Assembly: GCA_020444175.1 (NCBI GenBank)
Contig: JAHLLM010000012.1
Span: forward strand, 62,001 to 126,000
Reading direction: 5' to 3'
Origin: Desulfobulbaceae bacterium
Lineage (GTDB): Bacteria; Desulfobacterota; Desulfobulbia; Desulfobulbales; SURF-16
DNA length: 64,000 bases
Shown: piece by piece, positions 22,004-37,818 of the stretch
Layout of the letters: every line of letters begins with the position of its first letter
Position numbering within the stretch: position 1 is the first letter of the stretch
The notes under the pieces: generated by a model
Told to the model about the DNA's origin: nothing
Databases searched by the model: none
Seen by the model: the letters and a program-made list of their open reading frames with translations, nothing else
Program-made: the position numbers and the translations under genes

Positions 22004-22528
22004 ATGAGGGCGAACAGATATTCACTAGACAAATTATATTACAGAGATGTCAGTCAGAAGCTCGCTACAGCCCGGGAGCTGTTTTCTGAACATGGCGATA
22101 TATTCATGAACGAGGCAGAGGTCAGAATAATGCTCGACAATCTCACCTCTCTTTCACTTAATCTGCAGAAACAAATGGCTTCAATGACAATGGGTTCACT
22201 TTGTCAGATATGCGCATCAAAACCTGAAGGCGGCTGTTGCAGCGCTTTTATGGCCAATGAAACAGATGCTGTTTTGTTACTTATCAACTTGTTGCTGGGC
22301 ATTGACGTTTGTCCCCAGCGGGACGATGATTTCGAGTGCTGCTATCTCGGTCCATCAGGCTGCACGTTGAAGGTAAAGCCCATTTTCTGCCTGAATTATA
22401 ATTGCCGGCACATCTTAACCGGCAATGGGGCTGGGGACTTAAAGGAACTTGATAAAGCCGCTTCCGCCGTTCTCAGGGAGCAGACAGCTTTGGAGGAAGT
22501 ACTGCTTAAGACAATTCGATCTCTTTAA
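22004..22528 (+). CDS. YkgJ-like Cys-rich protein (putative metal/Fe-S binding)
   Basis: 174 residues. A helical N-terminal half is followed by a cluster of cysteines: CQICASKPEGGCC, CPQRDDDFECC, GCTLKVKPIFCLNYNC. The pattern resembles YkgJ-type zinc- or iron-chelating domains. Role unknown. A GGAG site precedes the ATG. Its last 57 codons lie inside the 2.7-kb duplication; this copy is the intact one. It converges on the MerR-type gene with a 15-bp gap. Confidence 0.72.
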   Translation: MRANRYSLDKLYYRDVSQKLATARELFSEHGDIFMNEAEVRIMLDNLTSLSLNLQKQMASMTMGSLCQICASKPEGGCCSAFMANETDAVLLLINLLLGIDVCPQRDDDFECCYLGPSGCTLKVKPIFCLNYNCRHILTGNGAGDLKELDKAASAVLREQTALEEVLLKTIRSL

Positions 22529-22543
22529 AAAAGGCATTTGATC

Positions 22544-22909
22544 TCAAGCCGCACCGTCTGCTTTTTTCTTGCGTACAGGCTCTGCCAGATCAATCTTGCG
22601 CGGAACCAGACCGCTTGCCATAAAGGCTGTACACTGTTTGCGTTTTTCAAAGGGACAGTCGGCAATATTCCAACAGGGTGTATATTGCAGAAGTTTTTTG
22701 ATTGCCGCGATACTGATGCCGCCTTCATGGATCATGCCCCGCAGGCACTCAACCCACTTGATATCGTCCATGGTGAAGTAACGCCATTTCCCCTGACGCA
22801 TAGGCCGAATCAGATTCTCTTTCTCATAAATCCGTAAAGTTCGGGGATGAATGTTTAACATTTTCGCAGCTATTCCGATCGTAAAAATTGCCTTGTCGTC
22901 TGATATCAT
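22544..22909 (-). CDS. MerR-type regulator with Cys-containing tail (copy 1)
   Basis: 121 residues. An N-terminal winged-helix HTH of the MerR/HspR type (FTIGIAAKMLNIHPRTLRIYEKE) and a second helical half (residues 45-75) are followed by a tail with CWNIADCPFEKRKQC, a C-x5-C-x7-C arrangement. It is too short for a coiled-coil-plus-large-sensor MerR. The cysteines may bind metal or an Fe-S cluster, as an inference. It is the last gene of the small protein-NrfD-MerR transcription unit and probably feeds back on it. Confidence 0.83.
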   Translation of the reverse strand: MISDDKAIFTIGIAAKMLNIHPRTLRIYEKENLIRPMRQGKWRYFTMDDIKWVECLRGMIHEGGISIAAIKKLLQYTPCWNIADCPFEKRKQCTAFMASGLVPRKIDLAEPVRKKKADGAA

Positions 22910-22993
22910 TGTATTCCTCCAAACTCTCTCAAGGAAGGCCGGGGAATCTCTAAGATGCCCCGGCCCATGTCGGCTTTAATTCGTTACCTTCTC

Positions 22994-24178
22994 TTAGTGC
23001 TCGCCATGATCTTCAAACGCTTTCCCAAAGAACCTTTCGCCAAGCATGAAGCCTGCTCCGGCAACTCCAAGACCTGCCATGGTTACCAGAAGTTCTGACG
23101 TGGAAGGAATGTAGCTGAAGTAAGTCGGAAGATTATCCCATCCGCTGTACTGAGGTACGAGCTGACCGGCAACAACAAGGTCATAGCGGGAAAAGAACTG
23201 ACCGACCAGAACCATGATGGCTGCGGAGGTCATGGCAGGGATGCTTTTCATTTTGGTCATCACAAGAAGACCGATGGGGAACAGAAGACCGATGCACACT
23301 TCAAAGATCCAGAAGTTTGAGGCCAAGGGACCGCTGATCAAAGCTGTTGCTGCTGTACGACCGCCTTCGCTACCGCCAACATAGAAGGAGATGAAGCGCC
23401 AGGCGGTGGCAACGATGATCAGAAGAAGCATAAGGGTAACAACCTTGGCAGCGCTCTGAACGCCTTTGTATACGGTGTCACTCATTTTCTGTTTACGGAT
23501 GGCAAAGGCAAAGTTGGTAATCAGAACGGTTGCAGCAGCACCGGACAGGAATGAACTGGCCAGGAAGTAAATCGGCAACTGAGCGCCGTACCAGAAAGGA
23601 CGACCGCCGAGGGTAGCGAAAACCGCGCCAAGATTGGTATTGGCGGCAACCTCTGCCAGGGCTCCCAATACACCCAGGGTAATGGCAAGCTTGTACTGTT
23701 TGGTCAGGATCAGGAAGAACTCAAGAAACATGAAACCAACTGCCATGCCATAAAGAGTACCCATCCACCATATATTTGATGTCAGGTTAGGAGAGGTTAT
23801 ATTGTAGATGGCCATTCTCCAGGGACTTTCAAGCTCGACACCGATAAGGGTGAAACCACTTATAATTGTTATAATTGACATCCAGACCATCCTGTTTGCC
23901 AACGGGGCAAGACTGTTGCCGCCAAAGATGTGACTGATCGCCGCCAACAGGCAGAGGCCTGTGGAAGTGATGGCAAAGAAGGCGTAGGAGGAAATCAAAA
24001 TCCCCCAGGGCATTTCCCTTGTATTGTTATAAACATTGTGATGTCCGGCATAGAATGCATACAGTCCGGCACTGATCCCTACCACCGCCATCAACACAAA
24101 AACAAGTGTGGCTTTATTCAAGCCAGGTGTGGCAACTCTCGGCTCCGCAGTCGCTGCTAGTGAAAATCCGTTTGACAT
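22994..24178 (-). CDS. NrfD-family quinone-interacting membrane subunit (copy 1)
   Basis: About 394 residues with roughly ten membrane helices, of the NrfD/PsrC/DsrP superfamily that exchanges electrons between quinones and a periplasmic Fe-S/cytochrome partner. Conserved features include NNTREMPWG near the N-terminus and SPWRMAIYNITSPNLTSNIWWMGTLYG in the middle. The ATG at 24178 has GAGGAGGAAGAAC upstream; a GTG five codons earlier lies inside that site and is unlikely. The likely partners are the Fe-S protein and triheme cytochrome at 28.9-30.2 kb. It resembles the CbcU type more than NrfD proper. Confidence 0.9.
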   Translation of the reverse strand: MSNGFSLAATAEPRVATPGLNKATLVFVLMAVVGISAGLYAFYAGHHNVYNNTREMPWGILISSYAFFAITSTGLCLLAAISHIFGGNSLAPLANRMVWMSIITIISGFTLIGVELESPWRMAIYNITSPNLTSNIWWMGTLYGMAVGFMFLEFFLILTKQYKLAITLGVLGALAEVAANTNLGAVFATLGGRPFWYGAQLPIYFLASSFLSGAAATVLITNFAFAIRKQKMSDTVYKGVQSAAKVVTLMLLLIIVATAWRFISFYVGGSEGGRTAATALISGPLASNFWIFEVCIGLLFPIGLLVMTKMKSIPAMTSAAIMVLVGQFFSRYDLVVAGQLVPQYSGWDNLPTYFSYIPSTSELLVTMAGLGVAGAGFMLGERFFGKAFEDHGEH

Positions 24179-24365
24179 GTTCTTCCTCCTCACTTTTTAT
24201 TAGGTATTGAAACGTATATATTTTTCTCGACAGCCACGCTGTCAAACTCTTAAATCTCTTGCTTTATCTTACTCATCTCTGTACATAACAGGTGTTTTGC
24301 CCTGTGCACTGACATCAGACCGCCATCCGATTTTCAGTGCACCCGGGCCAGGCAACCAGGGCCTT

Positions 24366-24599
24366 TCAGCATCCTACAGGTTCAGGGCTCTTCTGATCCT
24401 TGGCGTTTGTTGACAGATGGTACAGACCGGCAACAACCGCGATGATTGAAAAAGGCCCCATGACAAGAAAAAGAACCAGGGAGAGAACGAACCAGAAGGC
24501 TTCGCTTAACCGGCTCATGGTTTTTGCCAGTTTCCCTACGATTGATTTGTTTTCGTTTTTCCTGTGATGATCTGCAAGCAAATGGATTAAGGCACTCAT
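24366..24599 (-). CDS. Small single-span membrane protein of the NrfD unit (copy 1)
   Basis: 77 residues: a basic, soluble N-terminus (about 1-33), one membrane helix (FWFVLSLVLFLVMGPFSIIAVVAGLYHL) and a short polar tail. An AAGGAGG Shine-Dalgarno stands 7 nt before the ATG. First gene downstream of the sigma-54 promoter. The diverged NrfD unit at 33.6-35.0 kb has a still smaller membrane peptide at the same place, suggesting a subunit or assembly role. Confidence 0.75.
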   Translation of the reverse strand: MSALIHLLADHHRKNENKSIVGKLAKTMSRLSEAFWFVLSLVLFLVMGPFSIIAVVAGLYHLSTNAKDQKSPEPVGC

Positions 24600-24664
24600 T
24601 TTTGGCCTCCTTATTCTTTCTCGTTCTTTGGCTAGGCTTTTTTCTCGTTTGACTAGTAACTAGA

Positions 24665-24679
24665 GCAAATGATATGCCA
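24665..24679 (-). promoter_or_regulatory. Sigma-54 promoter of NrfD unit, copy 1
   Basis: The minus strand reads TGGCATATCATTTGC: GG and GC are separated by exactly 10 nt, matching TGGCA(C)-N5-TTGC at -24/-12. It lies 66-80 bp before the start of the small membrane protein. Confidence 0.82.
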
Positions 24680-24850
24680 GACAGAAGTGAAAAAAGAATG
24701 AACCGAAAAACGCAACAAGCTAACTCCTCAAATTAACGAATAAATCGACACCTATAAATATTAATTTCCACTACTTTTTCTACAAAATCATAGCCACATA
24801 ATATGACACGCCGGGCTCAATTTACGCCCCACCCCACCCAGCACAAAGCT

Positions 24851-25033
24851 GCAAAATTCGCCCATTTTTGACTCATTTTTCGCCTTTCCTGCCGAACTTC
24901 CCCTTTCAAAAACACCCTCCCAAGAGCACTAAGTCAATAATATCAGCACGTTATACCTGCGACATTTTGCCCCAGAAGAATTATGCGCCTGCTTTTGAGC
25001 CCACAACTAGACCAAGCGCGCATTTTCCGCCCA
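24851..25033 (-). promoter_or_regulatory. Putative enhancer sites upstream of NrfD unit, copy 1
   Basis: GCAAAATTCGCC at 24851-24862 and, in the opposite orientation, GGGCGGAAAATGCGC at 25019-25033 resemble the shared motif GGACGCAAAATAMGCCC. They lie about 170-355 bp upstream of the sigma-54 promoter, the range expected for an NtrC-type activator. Weaker look-alikes occur near 24876 and 24959. The duplicated segment ends six bases beyond the last site. Confidence 0.55.
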
Positions 25034-25039
25034 CAATAA

Positions 25040-25917: not shown

Positions 25918-26090
25918 CAGGCTGCACGTTGAAGGTAAAGCCCATTTTCTGCCTGAATTATAATTGCCGGCACATCTTAACCGGCAATGGGGCTGGGGAC
26001 TTAAAGGAACTTGATAAAGCCGCTTCCGCCGTTCTCAGGGAGCAGACAGCTTTGGAGGAAGTACTGCTTAAGACAATTCGATCTCTTTAA
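25918..26090 (+). pseudogene. 3' fragment of the YkgJ-like gene
   Basis: The last 57 codons and the stop of the 22004-22528 gene, carried along in repeat copy 2. An upstream in-frame ATG in the spacer (25872, or 25882) gives a chimeric 72-residue ORF with no ribosome site. The YkgJ-like N-terminal half and half of its cysteines are missing, so it is treated as a remnant. Confidence 0.8.
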
Positions 26091-26105
26091 AAAAGGCATT
26101 TGATC

Positions 26106-26471
26106 TCAAGCCGCACCGTCTGCTTTTTTCTTGCGTACAGGCTCTGCCAGATCAATCTTGCGCGGAACCAGACCGCTTGCCATAAAGGCTGTACACTGTT
26201 TGCGTTTTTCAAAGGGACAGTCGGCAATATTCCAACAGGGTGTATATTGCAGAAGTTTTTTGATTGCCGCGATACTGATGCCGCCTTCATGGATCATGCC
26301 CCGCAGGCACTCAACCCACTTGATATCGTCCATGGTGAAGTAACGCCATTTCCCCTGACGCATAGGCCGAATCAGATTCTCTTTCTCATAAATCCGTAAA
26401 GTTCGGGGATGAATGTTTAACATTTTCGCAGCTATTCCGATCGTAAAAATTGCCTTGTCGTCTGATATCAT
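26106..26471 (-). CDS. MerR-type regulator with Cys-containing tail (copy 2)
   Basis: The 121-residue product is identical to that of 22544-22909: MerR/HspR-type HTH and a CWNIADC...C tail. The upstream gap to NrfD is the same as in copy 1. Both copies appear intact, so gene dosage is doubled unless one promoter is silent. Confidence 0.83.
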   Translation of the reverse strand: MISDDKAIFTIGIAAKMLNIHPRTLRIYEKENLIRPMRQGKWRYFTMDDIKWVECLRGMIHEGGISIAAIKKLLQYTPCWNIADCPFEKRKQCTAFMASGLVPRKIDLAEPVRKKKADGAA

Positions 26472-26555
26472 TGTATTCCTCCAAACTCTCTCAAGGAAGG
26501 CCGGGGAATCTCTAAGATGCCCCGGCCCATGTCGGCTTTAATTCGTTACCTTCTC

Positions 26556-27740
26556 TTAGTGCTCGCCATGATCTTCAAACGCTTTCCCAAAGAACCTTTC
26601 GCCAAGCATGAAGCCTGCTCCGGCAACTCCAAGACCTGCCATGGTTACCAGAAGTTCTGACGTGGAAGGAATGTAGCTGAAGTAAGTCGGAAGATTATCC
26701 CATCCGCTGTACTGAGGTACGAGCTGACCGGCAACAACAAGGTCATAGCGGGAAAAGAACTGACCGACCAGAACCATGATGGCTGCGGAGGTCATGGCAG
26801 GGATGCTTTTCATTTTGGTCATCACAAGAAGACCGATGGGGAACAGAAGACCGATGCACACTTCAAAGATCCAGAAGTTTGAGGCCAAGGGACCGCTGAT
26901 CAAAGCTGTTGCTGCTGTACGACCGCCTTCGCTACCGCCAACATAGAAGGAGATGAAGCGCCAGGCGGTGGCAACGATGATCAGAAGAAGCATAAGGGTA
27001 ACAACCTTGGCAGCGCTCTGAACGCCTTTGTATACGGTGTCACTCATTTTCTGTTTACGGATGGCAAAGGCAAAGTTGGTAATCAGAACGGTTGCAGCAG
27101 CACCGGACAGGAATGAACTGGCCAGGAAGTAAATCGGCAACTGAGCGCCGTACCAGAAAGGACGACCGCCGAGGGTAGCGAAAACCGCGCCAAGATTGGT
27201 ATTGGCGGCAACCTCTGCCAGGGCTCCCAATACACCCAGGGTAATGGCAAGCTTGTACTGTTTGGTCAGGATCAGGAAGAACTCAAGAAACATGAAACCA
27301 ACTGCCATGCCATAAAGAGTACCCATCCACCATATATTTGATGTCAGGTTAGGAGAGGTTATATTGTAGATGGCCATTCTCCAGGGACTTTCAAGCTCGA
27401 CACCGATAAGGGTGAAACCACTTATAATTGTTATAATTGACATCCAGACCATCCTGTTTGCCAACGGGGCAAGACTGTTGCCGCCAAAGATGTGACTGAT
27501 CGCCGCCAACAGGCAGAGGCCTGTGGAAGTGATGGCAAAGAAGGCGTAGGAGGAAATCAAAATCCCCCAGGGCATTTCCCTTGTATTGTTATAAACATTG
27601 TGATGTCCGGCATAGAATGCATACAGTCCGGCACTGATCCCTACCACCGCCATCAACACAAAAACAAGTGTGGCTTTATTCAAGCCAGGTGTGGCAACTC
27701 TCGGCTCCGCAGTCGCTGCTAGTGAAAATCCGTTTGACAT
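26556..27740 (-). CDS. NrfD-family membrane subunit (copy 2)
   Basis: Identical at the protein level to 22994-24178, with the same ATG and GAGGAGGAAGAAC site. This copy is closer to the cytochrome and Fe-S genes (28.9-30.2 kb), but a sigma-54 promoter and a hairpin terminator separate it from them, so it is not simply the third gene of their operon. Confidence 0.9.
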   Translation of the reverse strand: MSNGFSLAATAEPRVATPGLNKATLVFVLMAVVGISAGLYAFYAGHHNVYNNTREMPWGILISSYAFFAITSTGLCLLAAISHIFGGNSLAPLANRMVWMSIITIISGFTLIGVELESPWRMAIYNITSPNLTSNIWWMGTLYGMAVGFMFLEFFLILTKQYKLAITLGVLGALAEVAANTNLGAVFATLGGRPFWYGAQLPIYFLASSFLSGAAATVLITNFAFAIRKQKMSDTVYKGVQSAAKVVTLMLLLIIVATAWRFISFYVGGSEGGRTAATALISGPLASNFWIFEVCIGLLFPIGLLVMTKMKSIPAMTSAAIMVLVGQFFSRYDLVVAGQLVPQYSGWDNLPTYFSYIPSTSELLVTMAGLGVAGAGFMLGERFFGKAFEDHGEH

Positions 27741-27927
27741 GTTCTTCCTCCTCACTTTTTATTAGGTATTGAAACGTATATATTTTTCTCGACAGCCACG
27801 CTGTCAAACTCTTAAATCTCTTGCTTTATCTTACTCATCTCTGTACATAACAGGTGTTTTGCCCTGTGCACTGACATCAGACCGCCATCCGATTTTCAGT
27901 GCACCCGGGCCAGGCAACCAGGGCCTT

Positions 27928-28161
27928 TCAGCATCCTACAGGTTCAGGGCTCTTCTGATCCTTGGCGTTTGTTGACAGATGGTACAGACCGGCAACAACC
28001 GCGATGATTGAAAAAGGCCCCATGACAAGAAAAAGAACCAGGGAGAGAACGAACCAGAAGGCTTCGCTTAACCGGCTCATGGTTTTTGCCAGTTTCCCTA
28101 CGATTGATTTGTTTTCGTTTTTCCTGTGATGATCTGCAAGCAAATGGATTAAGGCACTCAT
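27928..28161 (-). CDS. Small single-span membrane protein (copy 2)
   Basis: A 77-residue product identical to that of 24366-24599, with the same AAGGAGG site. One central membrane helix. First gene of the second sigma-54-controlled unit. Confidence 0.75.
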   Translation of the reverse strand: MSALIHLLADHHRKNENKSIVGKLAKTMSRLSEAFWFVLSLVLFLVMGPFSIIAVVAGLYHLSTNAKDQKSPEPVGC

Positions 28162-28226
28162 TTTTGGCCTCCTTATTCTTTCTCGTTCTTTGGCTAGGCT
28201 TTTTTCTCGTTTGACTAGTAACTAGA

Positions 28227-28241
28227 GCAAATGATATGCCA
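28227..28241 (-). promoter_or_regulatory. Sigma-54 promoter of NrfD unit, copy 2
   Basis: The same TGGCATATCATTTGC as at 24665-24679, with 10 nt between GG and GC. The enhancer-like sites are duplicated with it at 28413-28424 and 28581-28595. Confidence 0.82.
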
Positions 28242-28601
28242 GACAGAAGTGAAAAAAGAATGAACCGAAAAACGCAACAAGCTAACTCCTCAAATTAACG
28301 AATAAATCGACACCTATAAATATTAATTTCCACTACTTTTTCTACAAAATCATAGCCACATAATATGACACGCCGGGCTCAATTTACGCCCCACCCCACC
28401 CAGCACAAAGCTGCAAAATTCGCCCATTTTTGACTCATTTTTCGCCTTTCCTGCCGAACTTCCCCTTTCAAAAACACCCTCCCAAGAGCACTAAGTCAAT
28501 AATATCAGCACGTTATACCTGCGACATTTTGCCCCAGAAGAATTATGCGCCTGCTTTTGAGCCCACAACTAGACCAAGCGCGCATTTTCCGCCCACAATA
28601 A

Positions 28602-30531: not shown

Positions 30532-32913
30532 ATGACCAATCAAGCACCACCCGCCGCAATCCATTTGACACTCGCGATTTTTACCGTTGACTCCAATTGG
30601 ACAATTACCTCCTTTACTCCTGAAGCAGAAGTCCTGACAGGCATGAATGCCGCTGACATGATCGGTCAGAACTGCTCTGATTTCTTCACAGAGGATCAAC
30701 ATTTCAGCATCCTGTGCAGCAGCAAACTATCCAACGGACAGACAACAACATTTAACTCTGTCATCACGAACGTCGACACGAATAAACAAAAGGATATCCA
30801 GGTAAACATTATCCCCGTTCCAGACCTGGCTGGCAATATCAGTGGAGCCGTTATCAGTTTCCAGGAAACTTCAAAATCGCACTTGGTCAGCCAACTGGTT
30901 TTTGATTCTGTGGCAGACGGTGTCTTCACTGTTGACAGTCAATGGAAGATTACATCCTTCAATAAGGCCGCTGAAAAAATTACCGGTTGGACACGCGAAC
31001 AGGCACTTGGCAAATCATGCCGAGAAATCTTTCACTCAAATGCATGTGGTGACTCATGCGTCCTTGCCCAGAGCGTGCAACAGGGCAGACCGGTTTTTGA
31101 TCGATCAATCTTTATCCAGAGCAAAGACGGTACAACCATACCGGTAAGCATCAGCGCAGCTCCCCTTCTTGACCATACGGGTAAGACAATCGGCGGGGTT
31201 GAAACGTTCCGTGATATTACCAGCATTATCAGCAAGGACCTCATATTCGACTCCATCGCCGACGGCGTATTCACAGTAGACAGGAACTGGAAAGTGACTT
31301 CTTTTAACAAGGCCGCCGAATCAATTACCGGTTGGACCCAGAAAGAAGTCATGGGTAAATCCTGCAGCAGTATTTTTCACTCAAATATCTGCGGCAACGA
31401 TTGCGTCCTTGCCCAAAGCGTCAAAAAGGGCAAAAAAATTACAGACAGACCCATTTTTATCAAGAAAAAAGACGGCTCAACAATTCCGGTCAACATAAGC
31501 GCAGCCCCTTTTCTCGACCATGAAGGAAAAGTAATCGGCGGCATTGAAACCTTCCGTGACATTACCAGCATCATCAGGAACGATCTTATTGTCGACTCTG
31601 TCGCAGATGGCGTTTTTTCCGTTGACAAAAACTGGAAGATAACCTCCTTTAATCGTGCTGCAGAAAAAATAACCGGCTGGACAAGCGAACAGGCCCTTGG
31701 CAAATCATGCAGCGACATCTTCCACTCAAGCATATGCGGCAAAAATTGCGCCATTGCCCAATGTCTTTACACCGGCAAAACAATTTCAAACCGCTCAATC
31801 ACCATTACCAATGCAACAGGTGAAAAAATCCCGATCAGCATCAGCGCCGCTCCGCTCATCGATCCGGATGGCAACATTATCGGCGGTGTTGAAACATTCA
31901 GGGACCTCACAGCCATTACCAGCCTCAGAAAACAACTGACGCAAAGTTATAATTTCGACGCCATCCTCAGCAAAAATGCCGCCATGCAGCGAATATTCAA
32001 AATATTGCCGGATATTGCCAAAAGCCCCAGTACTGTTTTGATCCTGGGAGAAAGCGGTACAGGAAAAGAGCTTGTGGCACGCGCCCTCTACAATGAAAGC
32101 ACCCGCAGCACAAAACCTTTTATAGCCGTTAACTGCGGAGCACTGCCCGAGACATTGCTTGAGTCTGAACTCTTTGGTTACAAGGCTGGTGCATTCACTG
32201 ACGCCAAAAAAGACAAAATGGGTCGTTTTGCAGCAGCTGAAAAAGGCACCCTGTTTCTGGATGAAATCGGAGACATCCCCCAGGCGCTTCAAGTCAAACT
32301 TTTACGGGTTTTGCAGAACAAGGTCTACGAACCATTAGGCTCGAACGCGCCAGTCAAGGCCGATGTCCGGATTATCACGGCCACAAATCGTAATCTCCAG
32401 GAACTGGTGAACCAGGGACTTTTCAGGGAAGATCTTTTTTACAGGCTCAATGTGGTCAAGATCCAACTGCCCCCTCTGCGGGAAAGACGCGAAGACATCC
32501 CTCTGCTGACCGAACATTTCATCAAACAGTTCAGCGCCCAGCAGGGAAAGGATATTATAGGCATATCCAGCCCGGCCTTGAACCTTTTGATGCATTATGA
32601 TTATCCAGGCAACATCAGAGAACTTGAGAACATAATCGAGTATGCCTTTATTCTCTGTGACGGCGGCCTTATCCAACCCGAAGACCTTCCCGAGCCTTTT
32701 TTCGTCCCTGAACAAACGGCCACAAAGGTTACCCGAGCCAAAGACGGGTTCCTCACCCTTGAAGAAACTGAAAAACAGGCAATCATCCTTTCTCTGGAAC
32801 GAAACAAATGGAAACGCATGGCGACCTGTCGGGAACTGGGAATCTCCAAAGACACACTCCGTCGCAAGATCACCCGATACGGATTAGCAAATCCCCTCTT
32901 AGACGAAAACTGA
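30532..32913 (+). CDS. Sigma-54-dependent activator with four PAS domains, three carrying Cys triads
   Basis: 793 residues. PAS1 is residues 8-118. Three tandem, very similar PAS units of 115 residues start at 122, 237 and 352. Each of these has GKSC and CG-x2-C cysteines, at 163/172/176, 278/287/291 and 393/402/406, which could form a redox or Fe-S sensing site (inference). The AAA+ domain (about 475-705) has Walker A GESGTGKE, Walker B FLDEIGD and GAFTDA, a variant of the sigma-54-contacting GAFTGA. The C-terminal Fis-type HTH ends near RRKITRYGL. It is divergent from the Fe-S/cytochrome operon and flanked by NrfD units, so it is the likely regulator of both and of the nearby sRNA. Confidence 0.93.
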   Translation: MTNQAPPAAIHLTLAIFTVDSNWTITSFTPEAEVLTGMNAADMIGQNCSDFFTEDQHFSILCSSKLSNGQTTTFNSVITNVDTNKQKDIQVNIIPVPDLAGNISGAVISFQETSKSHLVSQLVFDSVADGVFTVDSQWKITSFNKAAEKITGWTREQALGKSCREIFHSNACGDSCVLAQSVQQGRPVFDRSIFIQSKDGTTIPVSISAAPLLDHTGKTIGGVETFRDITSIISKDLIFDSIADGVFTVDRNWKVTSFNKAAESITGWTQKEVMGKSCSSIFHSNICGNDCVLAQSVKKGKKITDRPIFIKKKDGSTIPVNISAAPFLDHEGKVIGGIETFRDITSIIRNDLIVDSVADGVFSVDKNWKITSFNRAAEKITGWTSEQALGKSCSDIFHSSICGKNCAIAQCLYTGKTISNRSITITNATGEKIPISISAAPLIDPDGNIIGGVETFRDLTAITSLRKQLTQSYNFDAILSKNAAMQRIFKILPDIAKSPSTVLILGESGTGKELVARALYNESTRSTKPFIAVNCGALPETLLESELFGYKAGAFTDAKKDKMGRFAAAEKGTLFLDEIGDIPQALQVKLLRVLQNKVYEPLGSNAPVKADVRIITATNRNLQELVNQGLFREDLFYRLNVVKIQLPPLRERREDIPLLTEHFIKQFSAQQGKDIIGISSPALNLLMHYDYPGNIRELENIIEYAFILCDGGLIQPEDLPEPFFVPEQTATKVTRAKDGFLTLEETEKQAIILSLERNKWKRMATCRELGISKDTLRRKITRYGLANPLLDEN

Positions 32914-33662: not shown

Positions 33663-34859
33663 TTAGTGATCTTCAGACAGATGGCCTTTAAACAGGCGCT
33701 CACCCATGAGAAAACCCATGACACAGAGAGACATGCCGCCCACGACAACCATAATTTCGTGCAGGCTTGGAGTATAAGACCAGAGGTGAGGCTGACCAAC
33801 GATGCCCAACTCATGGAACTGAGGAACGATCATACCAACGACAACCAGGTCAAAGCGCATAAAGAAGATACCAATAACACTTGAGGTAGCCGCAACCATC
33901 AGAGCTGTCAGATTTTTAGCGCGTACTGCAAGGATGATGCAGAAAGGAATTACCATACCGAGCATAACTTCGCCAATCCAGAAATTCACTGCATAAGGAC
34001 CGCTGAGGATAGCCTGCATTGCTTCGTATTTTCCTGGCGGATGACCACTTACACCGGAGATTACTTTCCAGCAGGTGAAAAACATGATAACGGTCATCAA
34101 AAGAGCACCGAGTTTAGCAGTGGACTGCAGGGAACTCTCAAGAGCAGGGCTCATTTTCCAGCCATTTGCCTTATAACCGATCCAGTGAAAGAAAATAACA
34201 GCTGCGCAACCGGACATCATTGCAGAGGTGATGAAGTAAATAGGCATATAAGGACCATGCCAGAACTCACGACCGTTGAGCAGTCCGAAAACCGCACCCA
34301 GGTTACTGTGAGCAGCAACACCAGCGACCACACCGGACAGGCCGAGGTACCCAGCCAGTTTATGCTTGCCGGCCTGGAGCAGAGCAAACTCGATGAGCAT
34401 GAAGAAAAGATATGCTCCATAGAGTGTACCCATCCACCAGATGTTCGACGTCAGGTTGGGGGAAGTAATGTTGTAAATGGCCATACGCCAGGGATTTTCG
34501 ATCTCAAACGCAATGACAAGAAAACCGGCTATAATGGTTGTAATCGCCATAAAAACGGAACGCTTGGCAATAGGTTTGAAAGCGTCGACGTTAAAGACAT
34601 GACCAATTGATGATACAAGACAAAGACCTGTTGAGGTAACAACAAAAAAGACATAGGTGGCAATCAGAAGTCCCCATGGAACTTCGCGGGTTACATTATA
34701 TGCATTGTGATAGCCCTGAAAAAAGGCATGCACGCCAAAGGCAACACCGGTAATTGCCAACAAACCACTCAAAGCGATAGCAGCATTATAGCCGCTTGAA
34801 GCTTTTACTGCTAAGCCCTCACCTTCCTGGGGCAGAATATTTGCTAATATATTGTTCAT
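33663..34859 (-). CDS. NrfD-family membrane subunit (diverged paralogue)
   Basis: About 398 residues, clearly homologous along its whole length to the duplicated NrfD (shared WRMAIYNITSPNLTSNIWW, ANLGAVF-like SNLGAVF, VTREVPWG). Roughly ten membrane helices. The start is the ATG at 34859, preceded by AAGGAGTGAGTTCA. Between a small membrane peptide and a MerR paralogue, it has the same gene order as the duplicated unit. It has no dedicated Fe-S or cytochrome partner in the window, so it may share those at 28.9-30.2 kb. Confidence 0.9.
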   Translation of the reverse strand: MNNILANILPQEGEGLAVKASSGYNAAIALSGLLAITGVAFGVHAFFQGYHNAYNVTREVPWGLLIATYVFFVVTSTGLCLVSSIGHVFNVDAFKPIAKRSVFMAITTIIAGFLVIAFEIENPWRMAIYNITSPNLTSNIWWMGTLYGAYLFFMLIEFALLQAGKHKLAGYLGLSGVVAGVAAHSNLGAVFGLLNGREFWHGPYMPIYFITSAMMSGCAAVIFFHWIGYKANGWKMSPALESSLQSTAKLGALLMTVIMFFTCWKVISGVSGHPPGKYEAMQAILSGPYAVNFWIGEVMLGMVIPFCIILAVRAKNLTALMVAATSSVIGIFFMRFDLVVVGMIVPQFHELGIVGQPHLWSYTPSLHEIMVVVGGMSLCVMGFLMGERLFKGHLSEDH

Positions 34860-34919
34860 TGAACTCACTCCTTCGATTTTTGTTTCATGGTTCACAGACA
34901 TTCAGTTAAGAACATGTGA

Positions 34920-35036
34920 CTAGGAAAAATCACTCTCTTCACGCACTGCACGAAGCACTGGTTTGACCTTGAGATCAAAAACCGTATGGAGCGTAGCACA
35001 ACCTAGCCAAAAAACGAGAAATAATAAGCCGTCCAT
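34920..35036 (-). CDS. 38-residue single-span membrane peptide
   Basis: A short ORF (MDGLLFLVFWLGCATLHTVF..., ending in a charged tail) with an excellent AAGGAG site 6 nt before the ATG. It sits 60 bp upstream of NrfD2, the position held by the 77-residue membrane protein in the duplicated unit. Probably a small subunit or assembly factor. It is easily missed because of its size. Confidence 0.6.
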   Translation of the reverse strand: MDGLLFLVFWLGCATLHTVFDLKVKPVLRAVREESDFS

Positions 35037-35488
35037 TTGCTTCTCCTTAATAATTGAGACATTAATATGTCCTTTTTCTACTTACTCTCCGGAACAAATT
35101 GGCGGATCCATTCCAGACAGTACACTCTCTTCCTTTTCCACCTCCTTTTCAGTTAACGATGTATTGTTTTATCTGTTGCATTATTTGAAACACAAAACTA
35201 TAAATTAAAACTTTTTTCACATTAAACTGTGACAATGTGCCACATGCTTAATGTAACTAAATGTATAAAATGGGACATGCCAATTGTCAAGAAAAAATAT
35301 CATACGAATTACAACTTAAACGCAAAATAGCAGCATCAGATTAAGCGGACAACCACAATGTGGCATTTATTTCACAGCAATCCACTCTTAAATTTTTTAA
35401 TAAAATTGAATAGTTATAAATATTGAGCATTTCACACCCCCTCCAAAAACAGCCAAATTAAAAAAACTGACACTTTTTACACCATAAA

Positions 35489-35532
35489 GCAAAATTCGCC
35501 CACTAGAAAATCCAGAGGGCGCAAAATAAGCC
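35489..35532 (+). promoter_or_regulatory. Pair of enhancer-like sites upstream of the orphan sigma-54 promoter
   Basis: GCAAAATTCGCCC (35489-35501) and GGGCGCAAAATAAGCC (35517-35532) are 28 bp apart, same orientation, 113-156 bp upstream of the sigma-54 promoter at 35645. This spacing fits an NtrC-type activator dimer pair. Confidence 0.65.
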
Positions 35533-35644: not shown

Positions 35645-35659
35645 TGGCACAAGTCTTGC
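35645..35659 (+). promoter_or_regulatory. Orphan sigma-54 promoter (near-perfect consensus)
   Basis: TGGCACAAGTCTTGC matches TGGCAC-N5-TTGC exactly, with 10 nt between GG and GC. No annotated-size gene follows on this strand before the terminator at 35804-35835. Confidence 0.85.
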
Positions 35660-35670
35660 TGTAAAATAAA

Positions 35671-35835
35671 TGCATTAGCTTGCTCATCAAAAATGCCAAA
35701 AGACGAGACAGCTTCTTCCTTACTTTCCTCTCGGGTGGCGGCCCGAGAGGTTAAAAAAAATCAGAGTTCATTGACGAGCCTGAAAACATAACTTCTCCTT
35801 TGTAAAACCTGGGTCTATGGCCCAGGTTTTTTTTT
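35671..35835 (+). ncRNA. Candidate sigma-54-dependent small RNA (~165 nt)
   Basis: Bounded by the sigma-54 promoter (start expected near 35671) and a strong terminator. It contains a perfect 9-bp hairpin (CCTCTCGGG/CCCGAGAGG, 35727-35750), flanked by two C/U-rich single-stranded-looking segments, CTTCTTCCTT (35712-35721) and CTTCTCCTT (35792-35800), that are complementary to Shine-Dalgarno regions. CTTCTCCTT pairs over 9 bp with the AAGGAGAAG site of the 38-residue peptide. TTCTTCCT pairs over 8 bp with the AGGAAGAA before the duplicated NrfD ATG. A 32-codon ORF (35693-35791) lies inside but has no ribosome site, so a short peptide is possible but less likely. Confidence 0.5.
35804..35835 (+). 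terminator. Rho-independent terminator of the candidate sRNA
   Basis: AAAACCTGGG/CCCAGGTTTT stem with a 7-nt loop, running into nine T. It has no protein gene upstream on this strand to serve. Confidence 0.88.
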
Positions 35836-35964
35836 ATTTCCCTTACAAGCATTTCATGTCGAATAGCCTCTTTACCTTTCTTAAAAGTTGTGTTTATATC
35901 TTCTGGCAATTTTGTCTTGATGCCCCTCATTTCACGTGGCAACAATTGCCTGACCATCCCAATA

Positions 35965-35980
35965 AGACGCAAAATTCGCC
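35965..35980 (+). promoter_or_regulatory. Shared motif upstream of ftsH
   Basis: AGACGCAAAATTCGCC, 48 bp before the ftsH start. No sigma-54 promoter lies between, so if functional it may act as a repressor site or belong to the sRNA region. Confidence 0.4.
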
Positions 35981-36027: not shown

Positions 36028-37818
36028 TTGAAATATTTTTACAAGAACCTTTCAATCTGGCTCATAATCGGACTTGCCTTCATTCTGCTTCTCAATTTTT
36101 TCAAAAAAGCACCTGAAGACATAAACCATATTCAGTATTCCGATTTCTTAAAGAGAGTAAAAAGCGGTACCATCTCTGACATCAGTATCAATGAAAACAC
36201 CATTACCTGGACCAACTCAAACGGGGAGAAATTCAAGAGCATAGCTCCGCAAAAACCGGAATTAGTATCACCGCTCCTCGCTTCAGGTATTAATGTAGAG
36301 GTTCAGCAGACCAAAGAACCCCATTGGTTTTTTAAAACCCTTCTTTCATGGGTTCCTTTTATATTGATAATAGTCCTCTGGTTTTTCTTTATGAAACAGG
36401 GAGGCGGCAAAGGTGGCGGCAAGGCAATGGCCTTCGGGAAAAGCAAGGCCAAGTTAATCGACGGACAAAAGTCCAAGGTTAAATTTAAAGATGTCGCAGG
36501 CGTCCAGGAGGCTAAAGACGAATTGGTCGAGATTGTTGATTTTCTCAAAGACCCTACAAAATTTACTGATGCCGGAGCCCGTATTCCAACAGGTGTCTTA
36601 CTTTATGGCGAGCCTGGAACCGGAAAAACATTACTCGCAAAGGCAATTGCCGGTGAAGCGGGAGTCCCCTTTTTCTCAATAAGCGGCTCAAGCTTTGTGG
36701 AAATGTATGTCGGCATCGGCGCGTCCCGTGTTCGTGACCTTTTTAAAGAAGGGAAGAAAAAAGCGCCCTGTATCATTTTTATAGATGAAATTGACGCTGT
36801 TGGCCGTCATCGCAGTGCAGGAGGAGGCGGAGGCAATGATGAAAGGGAACAAACCCTGAACCAGCTCCTTGTTGAGATGGACGGTTTCGAGGGTAACGAG
36901 TCTGTCATTATTATAGCAGCCACCAACCGCCAGGATATACTTGATCCAGCCCTCCTGCGACCGGGACGCTTTGACCGTCAGGTTATGGTGCCTGTTCCCG
37001 ATGTAGGCGGTCGCGAGCAGATTTTAAAAGTCCATGCCGCAAAAATACAGGTAGCTGACGATGTTGACTGGAAGGTCATTGCCAAGGGAACGCCGGGATT
37101 TTCCGGTGCTGAGCTGGCAAATATGATTAATGAGGCGGCTCTGCTGGTAACTAGAATGAAAAATGCCTCCAAGGTGACCATGAATATTCTGGAAGAGGCC
37201 AAAGATAAAGTAATGATGGGAGCTGAAAGGCGCAGTCTGATTATCACCGACAAAGAGAAAAGGATCACCGCTTTTCATGAAGCAGGCCACGCACTTGTTG
37301 CCTGGATGCTTCCCGGCGCTGATCCTGTACACAAGGTAACTATTATACCCCGCGGCAAAGCCCTGGGTCTGACCATGCAACTTCCGGAAGAGGAAAAACT
37401 CTCCCATCCCAGATCATATCTCCTCAATAACCTCTGCATTCTGCTTGGAGGCAGAATTGCCGAAGAGATTGAGTTTAAAGATATGACCACCGGGGCCGGC
37501 AATGACATTGACCGGGCTTCAAATATGGCCAGAAAAATGGTCTGCGAATGGGGCATGAGTGAAGAAATCGGTACAATTTCCTTTAAAGGAGATCCTGCCC
37601 AGGGAGGCCAGGGACCACTGATAAGCCAGAAAACTGCTGAAAAGATTGATAGGGCCGTGGAATCTCTCATTGCCCAAGCTTACAGTACAGCAAAAAACAT
37701 ACTCACGGAAAACAGCAAAACTTTAGATGCGATGTCCCAGGCTCTGCTTGATGTTGAGACAATCTCACATAAAGACATCAAGAAAATTGTCGAAGAAAAC
37801 AGCCCGCATGTCTCTTGA
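36028..37818 (+). CDS. ftsH: ATP-dependent zinc metalloprotease FtsH
   Basis: Membrane-anchored AAA+ protease for quality control and regulated degradation. 596 residues. TM1 near 8-25 and TM2 near 105-122 flank a small periplasmic domain. AAA+ domain with Walker A GEPGTGKT (194-201), Walker [12 protein letters not shown] and the [21 protein letters not shown]. Zinc site HEAGH near residue 416. The start is a TTG at 36028 with a strong AAGGAGG 7 nt upstream. It precedes tRNA-Lys. Confidence 0.97.

Follow-up and report, generated by a model that had tools for sequence, protein, structure and literature searches.

A predicted sigma-54-dependent small RNA with complementarity to the leader of a divergent nrfD message in Desulfobulbaceae

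Among the small regulatory RNAs (sRNAs) depending on sigma-54, Qrr1-5 of Vibrio are short transcripts possessing their own -24/-12 promoter, upstream activator sites and a terminator; they are activated by LuxO, an AAA+ protein of the NtrC type, and act together with Hfq. GlmY/GlmZ and CrcZ are sigma-54 sRNAs of enterobacteria and pseudomonads which act through RapZ/Hfq/Crc. RNAIII, on the other hand, belongs to the agr system and is a long RNA with multiple targets. In Staphylococcus aureus, its interaction with the rot and coa mRNAs combines loop-loop kissing with pairing at the ribosome-binding site, without a clear need for Hfq (PMC3861533). The RpoN-dependent CJnc230 (FlmE) of Campylobacter jejuni is mainly processed from a flagellar mRNA and represses translation of flgM and Cj1387c at the ribosome-binding site (PMC11187230). 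From the sulfate reducer Desulfovibrio vulgaris, Dv_sRNA2 has been described, which is bound and presumably controlled by the neighbouring response regulator DVU0679 and whose function is unknown (PMC3333781). A literature search for sRNAs of Desulfobulbales did not reveal any.

From a 64,000-nucleotide stretch of Desulfobulbaceae DNA (the window), a sigma-54-dependent gene can be deduced that probably encodes a trans-acting sRNA controlling the divergent nrfD1 message next door (Table 1). This assignment, in which we have good confidence, is based on genome comparison, where a conserved promoter and structure, complementarity, co-occurrence and covariation are observed.

Table 1. Coordinates of the predicted sRNA gene, its proposed target and associated features in the window.
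Feature	Position	Strand	Remark
NrfD2 operon (77-aa ORF and second NrfD, 399 aa), proposed co-activated paralogue	26556..28161	-	
Sigma-54 promoter TGGCATATCATTTGCT of NrfD2 operon	28226..28241	-	
Degenerate palindromes at NrfD2 promoter	28376-28390 and 28410-28424		
Sigma-54 activator, proposed activator of sRNA	30532..32913	+	PAS repeats, AAA+ with GAFTDA, Fis-type HTH
NrfD1 (412 aa, PF03916), proposed regulated gene	33663..34901	-	
38-codon ORF MDGLLFLVFWLGCATLHTVFDLK..., first gene of nrfD1 message	34920..35036	-	28/28 readable loci
Shine-Dalgarno AAGGAGAAGC of leader ORF, proposed target of sRNA seeds	35039..35048	-	
Leader hexaloop CCGCCA (35100..35105) in hairpin	35088-35117	-	complement of sRNA loop
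TTGACA (-35), sigma-70-type promoter of nrfD1 message	35285..35290	-	
Enhancer-like palindrome 1 AAAGCAAAATTCGCC (consensus GGCGCANNNTGCGCC)	35486..35500	n/a	position kept in relatives
Enhancer-like palindrome 2 GGCGCAAAATAAGCC (consensus GGCGCANNNTGCGCC)	35518..35532	n/a	position kept in relatives
Sigma-54 -24/-12 promoter TGGCACAAGTCTTGC of sRNA	35645..35659	+	unique in own genome; position kept in 20/20 loci
Predicted sRNA, ~165 nt	35671..35838	+	ends inferred from promoter and terminator; covariance model matches in relatives
Hairpin 1 AGCTTGCTC ... GAGACAGCT	35677..35713	+	alignments; CUC/GAG pairs invariant
Seed 1 GCTTCTTCCTT	35711..35721	+	complementary to leader-ORF Shine-Dalgarno, one bulge
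Hairpin 2, invariant hexaloop UGGCGG (35736-35741)	35727..35750	+	compensatory changes, 8/9 stem pairs
Seed 2 ACTTCTCCTT	35791..35800	+	CTTCTCCTT, perfect 9 bp with same Shine-Dalgarno
Intrinsic terminator	35804..35838	+	12-bp stem 35804-35830, then T-run
ftsH, conserved downstream neighbour	36028..37818	+	

The full -24/-12 match asserted by the original prediction was recovered as a 15-mer occurring only once in the 5.4-Mb assembly. A match 26-33 nt upstream of the conserved RNA core was present in all 20 loci scored, a score reached at a same-sized position in only 0.6% of shuffled cases. rpoN (PF04552) is found in the own genome and in 16 of the 17 genomes tested, and the locus shows those marks of sigma-54-dependent sRNA genes that can be read from sequence, namely an own -24/-12 promoter at fixed distance, rpoN and an adjacent activator gene. 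The two enhancer-like motifs likewise proposed upstream turned out to be degenerate copies of the palindrome GGCGCANNNTGCGCC, which most relatives carry about 120-165 bp upstream of the sRNA promoter, mostly in two copies separated by 30-34 bp.

For the predicted RNA, a fold of -52.3 kcal/mol was calculated (z = -4.0), better than those of all 200 shuffles. Besides promoter and palindrome pair, the conserved parts of the locus comprise hairpin 1, a C/U-rich single strand and hairpin 2 with the loop UGGCGG, five in total. The latter hairpin, CCTCTCGGG-TGGCGG-CCCGAGAGG in the window, is indeed flanked by two C/U-rich stretches as had been claimed, and in 18 of 28 relatives it is directly followed by a T-run, thus representing itself the terminator there. 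In the window's lineage this T-run is lost and transcription would run on to the terminator at 35804, whose stem and T-run agree with the strong terminator previously assigned; only this lineage has the longer RNA form, which includes a second C/U stretch. Among 30 aligned sequences, 96.6% of the cells are paired, and 90 cells are changed on both sides versus 28 ± 4 in shuffles and 7-21 in slid controls. These counts, however, lean towards the structure, as the alignment was fitted to it.

The conservation pattern of a protein gene would have refuted the sRNA interpretation, and a 32-codon ATG ORF does lie within the window's RNA. However, start, frame and length of this ORF vary between relatives, several of which do not have any, a search across relatives did not find a conserved ORF inside the sRNA, and the base changes follow the pattern of paired bases. 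A protein-coding function is rejected on these grounds and retains practically no probability. With promoter, hairpin and most terminators kept in relatives and without conservation of an ORF, the interpretation as small RNA is supported, albeit transcription has not been shown.

BLASTN of the locus against the family gave clear matches only in four relatives, all between nrfD and ftsH, and hence a covariance model was built. Model R1, constructed from five sequences, extended the occurrence of the RNA to additional genomes of both family and class. Model R2, derived from 30 sequences and run on 251 genomes, gave hits in 45 of them at E ≤ 0.05 and in 38, belonging to the class, at E ≤ 2.1e-4, with one strong match each. 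The sampled phylum genomes outside the window's family contributed a single weak match, and 33 of 47 pattern matches in the genome collection were not confirmed by the covariance model and were taken as chance. As the named relatives bearing the RNA are Desulfobulbaceae, Desulfobulbus and unclassified deltaproteobacterial MAGs, the order concerned can be inferred to be most likely Desulfobulbales. A search of the whole window against Rfam returned only a single tRNA, the sRNA locus giving nothing at the gathering threshold and only sub-threshold chance matches (MicX, PsrR1, PyrR) at E ≤ 5; the covariance models of Qrr and GlmY/GlmZ did not match the sRNA under either setting. The sRNA is a new RNA family.

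A model match in another genome (G007, L121:8139-8215) concerns an element that resembles the sRNA and has a -24/-12 promoter, but carries the loop CCGUGG. It is found at an unrelated locus, in a genome without a close NrfD, and was set aside, unexplained.

In nearly all genomes, the locus is arranged in the order cytochrome c7, Fe-S protein, sigma-54 activator, nrfD1, sRNA and ftsH, and the sRNA was located between nrfD and ftsH in 19 of 20 inspected loci. An exact TTGACA precedes nrfD1 in 25 of 28 loci. For the 38-codon ORF at the beginning of the nrfD1 message no Pfam match was obtained; its product is membrane-like and kept across the order, and could belong to the NrfD complex as a small subunit. 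Upstream of this ORF, the leader forms a hairpin whose loop reads CCGCCA or CCGCUA in all 28 readable loci and is therewith the exact complement, or the complement with one G-U, of the sRNA loop UGGCGG. All six loop bases are unpaired in each of the 28 folds, and the leader stem covaries (75 versus 36 cells). When strictly demanding the exact hexaloop, 26 of the 28 nrfD1 leaders are positive, while 269 other upstream regions of these loci, serving as controls, are all negative. The leader additionally harbors a strong Shine-Dalgarno-like AAAAGGAGGTGG (35138-35149, minus strand), which is kept in many relatives without a start codon at proper spacing and is possibly a ribosome standby site.

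The same neighbourhood admits a reading in cis, with the RNA being the attenuated leader of a sigma-54 ftsH transcript and its hairpins acting on that transcript, since the RNA is followed by ftsH, a gene of the same strand, in 19 of 20 loci and a third palindrome (35966-35980) is situated about 50 bp upstream of it. Yet in most lineages the terminator intervenes, ftsH has its own CTTTACCTTT element upstream, conserved in many relatives, and neither the complementary hexaloops nor the covariation of seed and Shine-Dalgarno sequence with the divergent nrfD leader would be explained. For these reasons, an ftsH leader is judged very unlikely, and the sRNA is further regarded as acting on nrfD1.

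The second predicted contact is at the Shine-Dalgarno sequence of the small ORF, and complementarity to the nrfD leader at two sites makes the connection to the NrfD module stronger than originally proposed. In the window, pairing energies of -14.7 kcal/mol for seed 1, with its one bulge, and of -15.6 kcal/mol for the nine perfect pairs of seed 2 including flanking pairs were calculated. Seed 2 is restricted to the window's lineage, with CAGCTTCTTC(C/T) at its place in G017 and G019-G021. A pair found elsewhere among the relatives consists of the seed GCUUCUCC and the Shine-Dalgarno sequence GGAGAAGC, and where the latter is changed the seed is often changed too, as in G107 (GGACAAGC with seed GCUUGUCC), G108 (GGAGGACAAGC with seed GCUUGUUCUC) and G112 (GGACAGGC with seed GCUUGUCC). 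Cognate pairs are stronger than those obtained by swapping between genera, with P = 0.006 for 13 genera (one genus being without usable seed) and P = 2e-5 for 14 genera (four pairs added by hand), while a control region of the sRNA gave P = 0.31. These tests ignore kinship between the genera, and the P values are consequently optimistic. Pairing is weak in G085, G092 and G051. With complementary apical loops and a second contact at the ribosome-binding site, two of the elements of an RNAIII-type interaction are found.

As the pairing of seed 1 with 3 of the 45 other gene starts in the window is as good or better, further targets are possible. The C/U-rich seeds match many Shine-Dalgarno sequences, and it might even be that the RNA is a general anti-Shine-Dalgarno sRNA acting on many mRNAs, nrfD1 being merely one of them. 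We regard this as a minor but by no means negligible possibility, against which it speaks that the hexaloop partner is present only in the nrfD1 leader and in none of the 269 controls, and that sRNA and leader element are jointly missing in several genomes. Thus, the members of family f7 encode nrfD and the small ORF, whereas 30 NrfD loci of this family are without model match and the CCGCCA leader loop is missing from nearly all of them; in G063 and G070, too, neither sRNA nor leader loop is present. For f8, G232, the hexaloop pair and the sigma-54 promoter are kept while hairpin 1 is altered. Exceptions are G073, where the leader loop is kept and the sRNA loop has diverged, and G213, which has the leader loop while no sRNA was detected at the locus.

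The gene for the proposed activator is adjacent in nearly all loci, with G044 and G051 as exceptions. All activator orthologues seen at this locus show GAFTDA in place of the usual GAFTGA. Binding of the activator to the palindromes is inferred solely from location. Upstream of the NrfD2 operon, the sigma-54 promoter scores at least 24 in all 16 complete regions versus 5% of shuffles and is in most cases accompanied by two palindromes spaced by about 33 bp; sigma-54 promoters were also sought upstream of the Fe-S/cytochrome operon, where none was found. Perfect palindromes, identified in 13 genomes, mostly fall within this module, where they lie upstream of the sRNA and of NrfD2 and in the vicinity of ftsH. 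Since G149 possesses the palindromes before NrfD2 and belongs to f7, the family in which no sRNA was found, the sRNA might be a later addition to an older activator circuit.

In the window, a 2,684-bp sequence is present twice as exact direct repeats (22356-25039 and 25918-28601, 3,562 bp apart) that include the complete NrfD2 operon together with its sigma-54 promoter; this is either a recent duplication or an assembly artefact. In G214 (L182:1579-1624), a GGGTGGCGGCCC hairpin is present in the NrfD2 leader on the same strand, downstream of the sigma-54 promoter, and might act either in cis or as a decoy.

Taken together, a regulatory sequence can be envisaged in which the PAS-type activator encoded beyond nrfD would bind the paired palindromes and fire the -24/-12 promoter. 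The RNA would then fold into two hairpins separated by the C/U-rich single strand, as supported by covariation. Complementarity, co-occurrence and covariation suggest that its hexaloop kisses the CCGC(C/U)A hexaloop of the nrfD1 leader and that the seed pairs with the Shine-Dalgarno sequence of the 38-codon ORF. Ribosome entry might thereby be blocked, resulting in repression of the small ORF and the coupled nrfD1. Because NrfD2 has both the sigma-54 promoter and the palindromes in common with the sRNA, with a promoter of the sigma-70 type preceding nrfD1, NrfD1 would probably be swapped for NrfD2 when the activator is on. Transcription, activator identity, repression, the paralogue switch and the signal are all inferred in the absence of transcript data. 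We slightly favor the complete picture of a paralogue switch without Hfq, in which one sigma-54 activator turns NrfD2 on and NrfD1 off via a kissing-loop and Shine-Dalgarno-covering sRNA, the six-base loop being invariant and each contact either conserved or co-evolving throughout the order. Hfq (PF17209) was not found in any of 97 genomes of the class, positive controls having worked, and the hexaloop kiss together with a seed of 8-10 bp would be suited to chaperone-free pairing.

In several nrfD1 leaders, the Shine-Dalgarno sequence is predicted to be already partly paired, and in some largely so (unpaired probability of 0.06-0.15 in G040, G041, G002, G003 and others), and therefore an activation of nrfD1, for example by refolding a leader with occluded Shine-Dalgarno sequence, is not excluded. 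Its chance appears small, however, as the seed covers the Shine-Dalgarno sequence itself and the bound state would hide it as well. Repression thus remains our preferred outcome of the pairing.

Few riboregulators are known in a class without Hfq, and for the new RNA family a target and a candidate activator can be named, with two contacts being supported by comparative evidence. If the proposal is true, a sensor of an unknown signal is coupled to the selection of one or the other of two membrane NrfD subunits, in bacteria of central importance for the sulfur cycle, and a natural series of kissing-loop pairs becomes available for study.

Compared to the systems described above, GlmY/GlmZ and CrcZ have only sigma-54 dependence in common with the window's sRNA, their sequence, structure and genes being unrelated. 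CJnc230 is similar as an RpoN-dependent sRNA acting at the ribosome-binding site, where repression is inferred for the RNA presented here, but differs in its processing from flagellar mRNA and in its targets. Dv_sRNA2 resembles it as an sRNA of a sulfate reducer with a regulator encoded nearby, that regulator, however, being a two-component response regulator; in the sampled phylum genomes outside the window's family, the RNA model gave no more than the one weak match. In contrast, Qrr1-5 correspond in being short sigma-54 sRNAs with own promoter, activator sites, terminator and an AAA+ NtrC-type activator. The analogy to Qrr and GlmY/Z originally drawn hence holds for the sigma-54 kind and fails for an Rfam match, which is lacking here as it is for CrcZ, as well as for the Hfq partner of Qrr, absent in the window's class; activator subtype and target are also different from Qrr. 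The proposed mode of pairing resembles that of RNAIII, which combines loop-loop kissing with pairing at the ribosome-binding site and does not clearly require Hfq. With the window's sRNA being short, sigma-54-dependent, encoded beside its target and without match to Rfam, this is a likeness of mechanism, not of descent.
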